Source: Opitutus sp. ER46
GTDB taxonomy: Bacteria; Verrucomicrobiota; Verrucomicrobiia; Opitutales; Opitutaceae
Direction: 5' to 3'
DNA: 64,000 bases
NCBI RefSeq assembly: GCF_003054705.1
Contig: NZ_QAYX01000025.1
Location: 1-64,000, forward strand
Within the stretch, counting starts at the first letter, position 1. Every line of letters begins with the position of its first letter. The notes below the pieces were generated by a model. The model worked only from the letters and a program-made list of their open reading frames with translations. It did not search any database and had not been told where the DNA came from. The translations under genes were made by a program, and so were the position numbers. Shown piece by piece: positions 5,417 through 13,606 of this stretch.

Positions 5417-6514
5417 TCAGGCTCCGGTTGGGGTCGGCCGGGCATCTCCGCAGACCACCGGCGACGACTGCGCGGCGGCGGGGTGAGCTGCGGGTTGGGC
5501 GGCATCGAGTTCCAGCGTGAACCAGAAGCGCGAGCCGCTGCCGGGCACACTCTTCACCCCGATCTCGCCGTGCATCAGCTCGATCAGCCGCTTGCAGATC
5601 GCGAGCCCCAGCCCGGTGCCGCCGTGGCGCCGGCTGGTCGAGGGTTCCGCCTGGACGTAGGGCCGGAAGAGCAGGGCCTGCACGTGGGCGGGGATGCCGA
5701 TGCCAGTGTCCATCACCTCAAACCGCAGCCGGAAGCGGGCGGAGGCGCGTTCGTCGAGGCGCACCTTGAGGACGACATTGCCGCCGCGCGGGGTGAACTT
5801 CACCGCGTTGCTCATCAGGTTGAGCACAATCTGCCGGAGCCGCACCGGGTCGCCGGAGACCGCGGTCGGCACGGCGGGATCGAGCTCGAGGAAGAGCTGG
5901 AGCCCCTTGGCGGAGGCGTCGTCGGAGCAGAGCAGCACCGCGAGCTGGAGCTGTTCCCGGAGGTCGAAATCGATGTGCTCAAGGGTGAGGCCGCCGGCCT
6001 CGATCTTGGAAAGGTCGAGCACGTCGTTGAGCATGGTGCGAAGGGAATGTCCCTCCCGGGTGAGCGCCTGGACGAGATCGGCCTGCTCCTGGGTGAGGGC
6101 GGTCCCGCGCAGGAGATTGCCGACGCCGAGCAAGCCGTTGAGCGCGGTGCGGATCTCGTGGCTGACCTGGGCGAGAAAATCGCGGCGGGCGGTGCCGGCG
6201 GCTTCCACGATGGCCTTCTCGCGGCGCAGTTCCTGGGCAATGAGCACCTGGCGGTCGAGCTCCTCGCGCAGCAGGCCGTTGCGCCGCTCCAGCTCGGCGA
6301 TGCGGGCGTGGAGCTGCCGCTCGAGCTCGTCGACCGGGTCCTGGGCGGCGGTTGCTTCGGCAAAGAGCCGCCACCGGCGGAAGAAGGGGATGGCCACCCC
6401 GCGCGTCCCGCGGCGCAGGTTCGCGGCGAACACCAGGGTGGAGGACGTGGACGCGCCGGTCCGGGATCCCTGCCTGGCTTCGTTGAGGTGCGGATGCGGG
6501 TGAGTGGAGGTCAT
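5417..6514 (-). CDS. orphan sensor histidine kinase, soluble
   Basis: 365 residues from ATG 6514, preceded by GGAGGGAG; upstream in-frame codons only translate a heptamer repeat. A coiled-coil (about residues 50-105, rich in ELERR, ELDRQ) precedes HisKA with the phospho-acceptor in [11 protein letters not shown] (His about 118). HATPase_c follows: N-box [10 protein letters not shown]1 DTGIGIP, G2 GGTGLGLAI, ending near FWFTLEL. No transmembrane, PAS or receiver domain is present, so it should be a cytoplasmic kinase that receives its signal through a partner. No response regulator gene is adjacent. Confidence 0.9.
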
Positions 6515-6594: not shown

Positions 6595-6634
6595 AAAGGC
6601 TGAAGGGCCGAAGGGCTGAAAAGCTGAAGGTTCT

Positions 6635-6807
6635 GGCCTCCGGCCTCTGACCTCCGGCTTCAGGCCTCCGGCTTCCGGCCTCTGACCTCTGACCTCTGAC
6701 GTCTGACATCCGACATCTGGCCTCCGGCTTCCGGCCTCCGGCCTCCGGCTTCTGACCTCTGACGTCTGACATCCGACATCTGGCCATCAGGCCTCCGGCC
6801 TCTGACC
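6635..6807. repeat. 24-unit heptamer array GRCNTCY
   Basis: Some 24 consecutive 7-bp units follow the pattern G-R-C-N-T-C-Y (GGCCTCC, GACCTCT, GACGTCT, GACATCC, GGCTTCC), with one 8-bp unit at 6782-6789. A seven-unit relative lies at 22676-22724. The block GACCTCT-GACGTCT-GACATCC is present twice, showing internal duplication. It occupies the divergent intergenic region between the histidine kinase and the first sigma factor gene. Confidence 0.85.
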
Positions 6808-6886
6808 CAAGATGACACGTAGCGGAGGCGGAGTGTCATCTTTTGGCTTTGTATCGCGCGGGGCGGCTTCGCAGGCTCGTTGGCTG

Positions 6887-10335: not shown

Positions 10336-10845
10336 ATGTATAAAGCCACGGTTAAGGTGAATGTGCAGTTGTTCACAGAGAAGGTCGGCGAGTATGGCGT
10401 TCGCGACATCGACGCCTACCTGAACGACCTGAAGGACGTCTCCGCGAGACCACGTCCGGATGGAAAACCCGTGTTCGTCCTCGACGAACCGAAGCGAGGC
10501 GAGGAGCAGGTGCTGCACATTCGAATCCCGGAGGGGTACAAGAATGGCGTGCAGATCACGTTTCAGCTGCCGATGCCCACCGACCCGAAAGCGGAGAGCT
10601 ACGTGATTCTCGGGCTGGCGTTCACGCCCTACGACCAAGGCCGCGAGGTGGGACAGAGTGAGTTTCCGCTGATCGCCATGAACCGCGACACCCACGCGAG
10701 CGAACTCACCGTGACCGACATGTGCGACCAGGGTCCGGGCGAGCACCGCTGCTATCGTTACGGTATCCTGCTCCAGCGCGTGGAGGACGGACAGATCGGC
10801 GTGTTTGATCCGGAGTTCGACAACGAGACGCCGGATGTGCCCTGA
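10336..10845 (+). CDS. hypothetical protein, possibly DP-EP-like
   Basis: 169 residues from ATG 10336, only 12 bp after the kinase stop, so it belongs to the module 1 transcript. It looks like a soluble beta-rich protein with no signal peptide: KATVKVNVQLF at the start, VLHIRIPEGYKNGVQITFQL in the middle, YRYGILLQRVEDGQIGVFDPEF near the end. The closing FDPEFDNETP resembles the C-terminal signature that names the small DP-EP family, but I hold that match loosely. Close linkage to the kinase suggests a substrate or effector. Confidence 0.6.
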   Translation: MYKATVKVNVQLFTEKVGEYGVRDIDAYLNDLKDVSARPRPDGKPVFVLDEPKRGEEQVLHIRIPEGYKNGVQITFQLPMPTDPKAESYVILGLAFTPYDQGREVGQSEFPLIAMNRDTHASELTVTDMCDQGPGEHRCYRYGILLQRVEDGQIGVFDPEFDNETPDVP

Positions 10846-10860
10846 CGGCCGCCGGGCTAC

Positions 10861-10911
10861 GGCCGGCCGCGGCCGGCCGAATGCTGAAAGCTGAAAGACT
10901 GAAAGCTGAAC
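10861..10911. repeat. perfect GC palindrome plus GCTGAAA tract
   Basis: An 18-bp perfect palindrome GGCCGGCCGCGGCCGGCC (10861-10878) joins, through GAATG, a tract of CTGAAAG units (10880-10911). A shorter copy, GGCCGGCCGAATGCTGA, occurs again at 11039-11056. Confidence 0.7.
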
Positions 10912-10943
10912 CGACGCTCTGGTTTTCAGGTTCAGCCACGGGC

Positions 10944-10987
10944 GGCCGGCCTAATGGAGAATTGAGAATGAAGAATGCAGAATGCCG
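10944..10987. repeat. GC palindrome plus AATGGAG heptamers
   Basis: GGCCGGCC (10944-10951) runs through TAATG into AATGGAG, AATTGAG, AATGAAG, AATGCAG, AATGCCG (10953-10987). The first four units match those at 22518-22545 except for one base. Confidence 0.75.
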
Positions 10988-11131
10988 GAGGCAGTGACGG
11001 CACCGCTTAGCCGGCAGTTCTTCTGCATCGACGTTGAAGGCCGGCCGAATGCTGAGCGTTGAATTGCGACGCGGGCGGTTTGGCATCCCCTCCGCGCGCG
11101 CGCGCGGTCGTGTCAGGGGCCGAAAACAACA

Positions 11132-11168
11132 AGTCGAAGACCAGCGCGCGAGGCGCCGGTCTTCGACT
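11132..11168 (-). terminator. intrinsic terminator candidate, minus strand
   Basis: Arms 11132-11147 and 11153-11168 pair at 15 of 16 positions around a 5-base loop. On the minus strand the hairpin is followed by TTGTTGTTTT. It lies about 230 bp past the micro-protein gene at 11397-11474 and is the first good stop signal on that strand. Confidence 0.5.
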
Positions 11169-11396
11169 GTGGATTGCGGAGGCGGCTGTCGGTGCGAACT
11201 CAGTGACAGGTCCAGGTAGACCGGTGATTCACTGGCTCGCGGCCTTGGTCGTCCGCCAGAAACACGATGCAACGCGGTGGTAAGTGAGATCAGCTTCACT
11301 GCGGCCGGTCGCTGGTTGAACAGCTCGGCCGGCCTGATGAGGAAGGTGATCTCCCGCGTTCATCGTGGCTGGGTGGTGCGGAAGAATCGCCGAAGC

Positions 11397-11474
11397 TTAC
11401 TTCTTCTTCGCGACCTTCTTCACCTTCTTTGCCGGAGCTTTCTTAGCTTTCTTCACGGCCTTTGCTTTAGGCAT
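11397..11474 (-). CDS. 25-residue lysine-rich micro-protein
   Basis: ATG at 11474 reads 25 codons to TAA at 11397. The product starts MPKAKAVKKAKKAPAKK and ends VKKVAKKK: 13 of 25 residues are Lys, the rest Ala, Val and Pro. An AGGGA stands 6-10 bases upstream of the start. The (A/P)-KK repeat pattern is that of bacterial histone H1-like tails (AlgP, Hc1-like), so a nucleic-acid-binding peptide is plausible. It lies upstream of a hairpin with a T-rich flank on the same strand. It is too short for most gene callers; expression is unproven. Confidence 0.6.
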   Translation of the reverse strand: MPKAKAVKKAKKAPAKKVKKVAKKK

Positions 11475-11674
11475 GTCTTTCCCTGGTTGAGGTTGCTTTC
11501 GACGGGCGGAGTGCCCGGCGACGTACCCTTTCGGATACACTCACCACGCGCGGAAAATACCGCGGTGGCGCACCTGACTAATGCGCCCGCGGTGGAAAAC
11601 GTCGAACATTTTTCCACGCGAGCGCGAAGTTTGTGCGCGTGCGTCACGCGAATCGCGCGACGTGTGGCGCGGCG

Positions 11675-13093
11675 TCAGCTCGTGCCGCGCACATGTGCGA
11701 TGACATCGGCCGCGCTGTAGCGGTCAGCGCCGGGCGGAACCAGCCGCGCGAGCGTGGCGAGTTCGTTGCCCGCGGTGATGATCGGCGTCTCGCTCGCGCC
11801 GTGGCGCCGCTGCCCGAGTCCCACCGTGGCGACGAGTCCGTTGCAGAGGCACTTTCGTCCGTTGCACTCGGCGGTAGCGCCGCCCTTGGCGACGAAGGCG
11901 TCGACGGGCTCGGCGGAGCAGCGGTAGCCGAGCGAACCGTCGTCACGGCGATAGGGCTGCCGCAGGTAACCGAGGTCGCAGACGCGCTCGCGGGCGGCGT
12001 AGACGCCGGCCTCGGACAACGTGCCGGAGAGCTGCGCGACCTTGAATGGAAAGCCGGTGGGCGACGCGAGGGGATCGGTGAAGACGCGGGCTTTGCCGGC
12101 GCGGCTGGCAGCGATCATCTCGTCCTTGAGCGAGCGGTCGACGCCAGCTTCGTCGCAGAAAGCGAACGCGGTGCCGATTTGGATGCCGACGGCGCCCTGG
12201 GCCTGGGCGGCGGCGAGGTGGGCGGGCGAGGCCTGCGCGCCGGCGAGCCAGAACGGCAGGCCGATTTCCTTGATCTTCGCGAGATCGGGGGTGTCGCGCA
12301 CGCCATAGATCGGTTCGCCTTGCGCGTCCAGCTGCAGCGGGCCGCGCGGCGGGGCGTTGTGGCCGCCGGCGAGTGCGCCCTCGACGACGAAGCCGTCGAC
12401 GCGACCGTTGGACTTTTTTGCCAGGGTGAGGGCGAGCGTCGCCGAGGAGACGATGGCCAGAAACTGCGGCCGCGGTACGACCGGGGCGGGACGGCCGAAG
12501 AACGCGGCGGGATCGAAACGCGAAAAGTACGCCTCGGCGTCCTGGGCGCCGGCGACGTCGACCTTGAGTTCGGCGGCGGCGCCGGTGCTCAGGCGGTCGA
12601 GCGCGCCGGGGATCGCGCGGGGAATGCCCGCGCCCATCAGGACGTAATCGACGCCGGCGAGCATGGCGCCGTAGAGCGACGGCAGGGTGGCGAGCTGGAT
12701 CTTTTCCAGCAGGTTGATGCCGACCTGGCCGGAGTGCCCCTCCTTGGCGAGATGCACCTCGACGAAGTTGGCGGCGACGGTGAGCTCGGTGAAGGCGCGG
12801 CTGGGCTCAAGCGTCGGCATGGGCACGCCGCGGAAAGGCGTGCCGGGAGCCTGGCCGCCGGGGACAAAGTACGTGTCGATGATACGCTCGGCGACCGCGG
12901 GGATGGGAAATGCCTCGAGGCCGCGGCGCATGTCGCCGCTGGCGTCGCCGTCGGCGAGACGGCGGGCAAGGATGACGGCGAGGAGGGTGCCGGAGATGAC
13001 GCCCAGTTCGCCGAGGCGCGAGACGGTGCGGGCCAGCTGCCAGTTGGAAACGGCGACGCCCATGCCGCCCTGAATGATGACGGGAGATGACAT
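11675..13093 (-). CDS. nitronate monooxygenase-like FMN protein
   Basis: 472 residues from ATG 13093 (MSSPVIIQGGMGVAVSNWQLA). The frame stays open far upstream to 14134, but that extension is antisense to the second sigma factor and is not real. The TIM-barrel N-terminus IQGGMGV...SRLGELGVISGT, the SFGxP-type core replaced by ANFVEVHLAKEGHSGQVGIN, and VEGALAGGHNAPPRG are features of the 2-nitropropane dioxygenase/nitronate monooxygenase superfamily. IQIGTAFAFCDEAG should help bind FMN phosphate. At 472 residues it is longer than the usual 320-380, with a C-terminal cysteine patch CNGRKCLCNG. True substrate unknown; it may be an enoyl-reductase-type paralogue. Confidence 0.78.
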   Translation of the reverse strand: MSSPVIIQGGMGVAVSNWQLARTVSRLGELGVISGTLLAVILARRLADGDASGDMRRGLEAFPIPAVAERIIDTYFVPGGQAPGTPFRGVPMPTLEPSRAFTELTVAANFVEVHLAKEGHSGQVGINLLEKIQLATLPSLYGAMLAGVDYVLMGAGIPRAIPGALDRLSTGAAAELKVDVAGAQDAEAYFSRFDPAAFFGRPAPVVPRPQFLAIVSSATLALTLAKKSNGRVDGFVVEGALAGGHNAPPRGPLQLDAQGEPIYGVRDTPDLAKIKEIGLPFWLAGAQASPAHLAAAQAQGAVGIQIGTAFAFCDEAGVDRSLKDEMIAASRAGKARVFTDPLASPTGFPFKVAQLSGTLSEAGVYAARERVCDLGYLRQPYRRDDGSLGYRCSAEPVDAFVAKGGATAECNGRKCLCNGLVATVGLGQRRHGASETPIITAGNELATLARLVPPGADRYSAADVIAHVRGTS

Positions 13094-13606
13094 ATGGATC
13101 GCGCGAGCTTTCGCTGGTGTCGCCGGGAGGCGGATGACGTATCGGGGCTCCGAGACCGGCGTGGACACCGGCGCGTGGGAGCCGAAAGCCCTCGCAATCG
13201 GACGCGCGTCGCGACCATGGGGCCGCGCTCCCCAACAAGGAAGCCCTATTTTGGCGCGGCCAACCGCAATGCGGGTGGAGACTACGAGGGCAGCGCCGCG
13301 CGTCGACGACGCGGGGGCGGCCCGAGAACTTTCCCGGGTCGGGCGGCCGGGAAAACTGCCTTGGGGCGGACCCGTGACGCTGCGCCTAACGGTCAAGCGG
13401 ACTGACCTTGCGCCACGAACTTCGGCGGCCATAAACCACCGCCGACCCAACCCCTGCGATCGATCCGCGGCCCCACGCGGCTCGAATTTCCCCAAGTATG
13501 AACCACCCCACGCGCCGGCCCACCGCTGTGACTGCGCACGCCCATTCCAATCCCCCCGGCCCGAGCGGTCCCGCGGAGCGCGAGCCGTTCCCCAAGGAGG
13601 CGCATC
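13094..13606. other. divergent intergenic region
   Basis: This 513-bp stretch separates the minus-strand oxygenase gene from the plus-strand sigma factor gene and should hold promoters for both. I see no credible coding sequence, RNA gene or strong hairpin. Open frames on both strands are interrupted or antisense to real genes. Confidence 0.5.

Follow-up and report, generated by a model that had tools for sequence, protein, structure and literature searches.

The closest described systems are bacterial H1-like proteins and the Lys-rich tails of larger proteins. Hc2 of Chlamydia (165–237 aa) and BpH1 of Bordetella (182–206 aa) are DNA-binding proteins with pentamers in which basic residues are combined with Ala, Val, Thr and Pro, and both differ in length through repeats; Hc2 condenses DNA and also binds RNA, and it has in addition a C-terminal domain without repeats (PMC2848022). 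The C-terminal tails of AlgP (AlgR3) and PhaF are disordered, rich in Lys, Pro and Ala, and bind DNA, in AlgP through KPAA peptides. They have been compared with eukaryotic H1, itself rich in Lys, Ala and Pro and thought to be bacterial in origin; the AlgP tail is joined to a helical N-terminal domain (PMC9239181).

We analysed a 64,000-nt stretch of the Opitutus sp. ER46 genome (the window; contig NZ_QAYX01000025.1, positions 1 to 64,000), in which a preliminary description had pointed to a short Lys-rich frame with the pattern of a histone H1-like tail. This frame, MPKAKAVKKAKKAPAKKVKKVAKKK, lies on the minus strand at 11397..11474 and comprises 25 codons followed by a TAA stop. Its coordinates and composition proved exact: 13 of the 25 residues are Lys and none is acidic. 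It is the only frame of at least 20 aa with at least 48% Lys in the whole window. Dinucleotide shuffling never produced such a frame, whether the window was shuffled 60 times (top Lys share 20%) or 11200–11680 was shuffled 5000 times (29%). The only simple repeat within the gene is a 9-base unit that occurs twice. A protein search of the same genome with the peptide, of a kind that is insensitive, returned the peptide itself and nothing else.

Histone H1 has a globular part, and the window peptide is without one. Pfam and NCBIfam scans of the peptide gave no match, and the folded domains of eukaryotic H1, the core histones and HU are absent from its 25 aa by Pfam. Being Lys/Ala/Pro-rich without a globular domain, it belongs among tail-only H1-like proteins in a loose sense that corresponds to no curated family. 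The composition thus fits the H1-like tail that had been proposed, and similar short genes exist in the family (below). Likeness to Hc2 and BpH1 (PF07382) lies in the basic residues with Ala, Val, Thr and Pro and in a length that varies by repeats. The window peptide is however far shorter, outside the range of about 165–237 aa with pentamer repeats that marks Hc2, and it did not match the HC2 profiles (PF07382, NF038052) at their curated cut-offs. Among its relatives a longer member, L120, scored best on the HC2 profile, reaching 29.1 of the 40 bits that the cut-off demands. None of the 27 genus genomes held an HC2 match above the cut-off, the sub-cut-off matches in the genus included no peptide of the window kind, and the same genome gave no match at E up to 1. 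Among seven Lys-rich short members scanned against the Rv3852 family and Burkholderia-type H1-like profiles (NF050153, NF038053), L035 and L120 matched weakly, far below the curated cut-offs; the window peptide did not match. Whereas the AlgP tail is attached to another domain, the window peptide is a tail alone. To eukaryotic H1 it is alike in composition, without evidence of descent.

The signals around the window copy are modest. The preliminary description had named a ribosome binding site. A Shine-Dalgarno-like AGGGAAAG is indeed present (11477..11484, minus strand), but it is weak: it matches no word in the Shine-Dalgarno set tested, and 36% of 1432 window ATGs have a duplex energy as good as its -4.6 or better. 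The hairpin with a T-rich flank that had been noted downstream is also real, with 16 pairs and a T-rich tail (11132..11168, minus strand), but it begins 229 nt past the stop and not directly behind the frame; no strict intrinsic terminator was found within 150 nt of the stop. It is the sole terminator-like hairpin on the minus strand in 10840–11750, where both strands together have 2 such sites, a number little higher than the shuffle mean of 0.9 (sd 0.7).

Between stop and terminator lies an unusually structured stretch (11172..11396, minus strand), with a folding z of -5.07 alone and -6.77 when the terminator is included. Of 182 control tiles, one fell below -5.07. The region 11280–11560 gave a z of -3.72; a tile over the peptide gene gave -3.95 with 40 shuffles and a near-equal stretch -2.36 with 150. 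This structure, together with the long terminator stem and the weak Shine-Dalgarno, speaks for a reading in which the frame is untranslated and its purine-rich sequence arose by chance or belongs to an RNA. The transcript that terminates near 11130 would then be non-coding and structured, or else the untranslated tail of the upstream gene's message. However, the plus strand of the same stretch folds well too (z of -3.96 alone, -6.55 with the terminator), and the structure may therefore stem from inverted repeats at the DNA level. Rfam scans gave no match at gathering score, with three weak ones below it in one scan, and within the genus the stretch has no DNA relative apart from the terminator hairpin. 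Moreover, the Lys-rich make-up with ATG and TAA was never reached in shuffles and matches genes that bear signs of translation. We regard the non-coding reading as unlikely, though it is the strongest of the rivals considered here. Two repeat-rich areas were seen separately. Five of the window's 13 GGCCGGCC sites fall within 474 bases of intergenic region at 10861–11334, beside degenerate 7-base repeats, and phrase-like degenerate repeats (CTCTGACCTCTGACGTCTGACATCCGACATCTGGCCTCCGG...) occupy 6600–6810; the control folding tile of lowest z begins at 6501.

Upstream of the peptide frame and on the same strand, a nitronate monooxygenase-like gene (11675..13111, minus, start codon provisional; Pfam NMO, E 7.9e-13) ends 200 nt before the peptide start. 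Downstream lie a convergent 169-aa frame without Pfam match (10336..10845, plus) and a kinase gene, also on the plus strand and convergent to the peptide gene. The minus-strand frames at 11363–11229, 11299–10706 and 10746–9865 had no Pfam match in our scan and mostly overlap plus-strand frames, one of which is the kinase gene. Since structure and a terminator come after the run of Lys codons, the frame could be taken for a leader peptide that controls a downstream operon by attenuation. However, no known-domain gene comes next on the same strand, and in the core loci described below the next gene is convergent wherever readable. As no minus-strand frame downstream is Pfam-matched, a leader for a following operon is hardly credible, the least probable reading of all.

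The nitronate monooxygenase-like neighbour is present in 11 of the 27 genus genomes, its own included (10 of the 26 others). At the loci beside it in these 10 other genomes we found no such peptide (L013, L015 and L017 are cut by contig ends); L009 holds one unlike 43-aa frame. A longer orthologue was likewise not seen at this locus in the same 10 genomes, which are not close.

Elsewhere in the genus two similar peptides were recovered, so that 3 of 27 genomes hold such a gene in the searches made. Genome G007 encodes MAKSKKATKAPAKKKKAAKKK (21 aa; 76% DNA identity to the window over 62 bases) and G004 encodes MAKAKKKTAAKKKKK (15 aa). Both occupy one common site with the same neighbours on either side, namely an NHL-repeat gene and a convergent gene that matches nothing in Pfam. 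The downstream gene of this site is matched in 26 of 27 genus genomes, distantly (28% identity) in the window's own, and the peptide is present in 2 of the 30 places read, out of 40 listed. Two further DNA queries matched 12 and 19 of the 27 genomes at E up to 0.05, and among their 43 loci such a gene occurred in the G007 and G004 loci only. A gene of MVKGQ type, which adjoins some of the family loci, exists in 25 of the 27 genomes, the window's own among them. The peptide was in none of these 25 loci as read, some of which are cut by contig ends, and the own genome's locus (L171) holds no such frame.

Across the Opitutaceae, short Lys-rich peptide genes without a folded part were found in at least 19 of 252 genomes and at least 10 of 49 genera, lower bounds that rest on 30 loci of the family DNA search, 38 stretches and the genus DNA query. 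Members measure 15–84 residues from the best start; MAKAKKTVKKVVAKKAAPKKAVKKVAAKKKK is a further example. One counted genome, G050, contributes a less Lys-rich member (L043, 11 of 28 residues), and a 26-residue member, L109, comes from an Elusimicrobia record. The DNA query matched 230 of the 252 genomes at E up to 1, many of them weakly and for other reasons. Of 35 stretches from a pattern scan of named genomes, 18 hold such a gene (L104 and L109 included), 7 hold a longer or unlike Lys-rich protein, 2 hold unrelated short frames only and 8 have none by the filter used. Protein and two-row profile searches returned only the window from 150 family genomes; extended to all 252, they added four matches at E of about 0.5–0.6. 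The two-row profile failed to recover G007, one of the two sequences it was built from, and these negatives therefore carry little weight. A phage search with the 76-aa member L035 gave no match. Titles and abstract openings in the literature, with subscription journals poorly covered, held no description of such genes.

Thirty loci were compared, including the window and the Elusimicrobia locus; L098 and L125 are from one assembly. Left out as duplicates were L027, L031, L034, L029, L075 and L078 (equal to L125, L124, L101, L120, L114 and L099, respectively, as judged by the length of the contig). Also excluded were L104, which runs off its end; the folded-part proteins L026, L030, L041, L080 and L083 and the piece L079; L095, L110 and L166, which we take by eye to be SWIB-like; and, as longer or unlike Lys-rich frames, L009, L022, L037, L045, L053, L068, L087, L090, L092, L106, L108, L111, L119 and others. 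A second short conserved basic gene of 31–32 residues, MGQQLNKxIKRKRRxxYLKRKK...KKK, was seen in several genomes of the family, at L039, L042, L049, L050, L052, L057, L059, L062 and L067; this group was set aside too, and L039 matched nothing in Pfam or NCBIfam. The folded-part proteins, from other genera, are 199–253 residues long with long Lys-rich tails. L041 carries a ribbon-helix-helix domain (Pfam), and the other four are alike in sequence.

In 8 of 31 distinct loci the peptide gene is followed, 94–456 nt downstream, by a convergent gene starting MVKGQK, MVKGQR or MVNGQR. Five more are tied to this gene type by BLASTP, the motif being absent from the frames listed. Beyond it, in the single locus L027, stands a DUF5069 gene (Pfam).

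In 21 of the 30 loci the stop is followed within 150 nt by a strict intrinsic terminator, as compared with 31 of 1350 random stretches, and these 21 form the core set. Their hairpins begin 23–38 nt past the stop. The stems covary, with two-sided changes in 7 of 12 pairs; at the two ends of the stem, outermost and innermost, the pairs are lost or gapped in 2–4 of the 21. A Shine-Dalgarno word precedes the start in 23 of 30 loci, whereas the figure for ATGs is 1458 of 10003. Duplex energy is less telling and rates the Shine-Dalgarno of most members as ordinary: the majority rank around the best third of ATGs, while 6 of 30 fall in the best 11% and two come at the very bottom.

The codons carry a further signal. 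L124 and L125 encode identical 31 residues with 6 codon differences, all synonymous (chance of 6/6, 1e-4 to 5e-4), and an ungapped comparison of the 30 bases ahead of the start shows 14 differences. L073 and L081 (16 residues) are one synonymous base apart. Across all pairs of 10 core genes, which are non-independent, there were 81, 135 and 426 differences at codon positions 1, 2 and 3, and 317 synonymous against 174 non-synonymous codons.

In one antisense frame the third bases fall in the same register, so that the synonymous changes would be silent there too, and the antisense reading was therefore tested apart. It holds that the plus strand encodes a Phe/Leu-rich hydrophobic peptide (11365–11490 in the window), the Lys frame being its shadow. 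Such a frame is open in the window and in relatives, and the synonymous-only result for L124 and L125 holds in one antisense frame as well. Sites that are 4-fold in sense and 2-fold in antisense favour pyrimidines (179 of 214, made up of 108 C and 71 T, with 25 G and 10 A as the remainder), which codon preference could also explain. On the other side, these sites use all four bases, and the Shine-Dalgarno words and terminator T-runs are oriented for the sense strand. Where the third base of AAN codons is free in antisense, it is the A or G of Lys at 192 of 192 sites in the core 21 and at 49 of 50 in the nine other loci. The window copy has Lys at 6 of 6 free sites, with just 6 and 7 sites available for the two tests. 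The retention of Lys third bases and the use of 4-fold sites point to sense-strand coding in the core 21, and we judge a coding antisense strand highly improbable. By these sequence marks, the core 21 loci appear to have good credentials as real genes.

The window copy stands outside the core. Like L003, L028, L043 and L122 it is without a Shine-Dalgarno word or near terminator, and no convergent MVKGQ-type neighbour is present at its locus. Against reading it as a gene, it was found once, without counterpart at its locus, and its Shine-Dalgarno is weak and its terminator far from the stop. It could be what decay has left of a longer protein with a Lys tail, for example of the ribbon-helix-helix proteins with Lys tails of other genera, and such proteins do exist in the family (L041 by Pfam and its four likenesses). 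However, the 47-aa frame obtained by upstream extension to a GTG has no domain match, and the family does contain short genes that stand alone and have terminators of their own; we hold the remnant reading to be improbable. The preliminary observation was thus confirmed in part and mostly stands, and its interpretation as an H1-like tail peptide is partly supported and plausible. On balance we favour, with some reserve, a small gene whose product is disordered and strongly basic and consists of an H1-like tail only. We infer that the window copy may be translated, that it may share descent with the other short genes and not just composition, and that it may bind nucleic acid. Likeness among low-complexity peptides can be convergent.

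As a small gene of this kind, it would act as follows. The peptide would be made in the cytoplasm, where a chain of this length and charge, mostly Lys and free of acidic residues, is not expected to fold alone. It may bind the phosphates of DNA or RNA by charge, without sequence preference, and by screening charge could contribute to nucleoid compaction or RNA packaging, much as histone H1, Hc2 or AlgP would act through their tails. Composition and these known tails are the basis for suggesting DNA compaction or RNA binding. The ribbon-helix-helix protein L041, of the same family and with a like tail, fits a DNA role.

More tentatively, and at somewhat less than even confidence, the Opitutaceae may hold a class of minimal chromatin peptides that are tail-only and elastic in length, down to 15 residues, often with their own terminator and with fast turnover in length and place, the window gene being a relocated member. 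What would be new is that tail-only H1-like proteins have shrunk to peptide size. If this is true, minimal chromatin peptides would rank with the smallest architectural proteins that bind nucleic acid. Short low-complexity genes are easily overlooked in annotation, and they slip past profile searches, as the profile that missed one of its own two sequences illustrates. The natural series of tails in this family, from 15 to over 80 residues, may reveal how long an H1-like tail has to be before it can bind nucleic acid or compact it.
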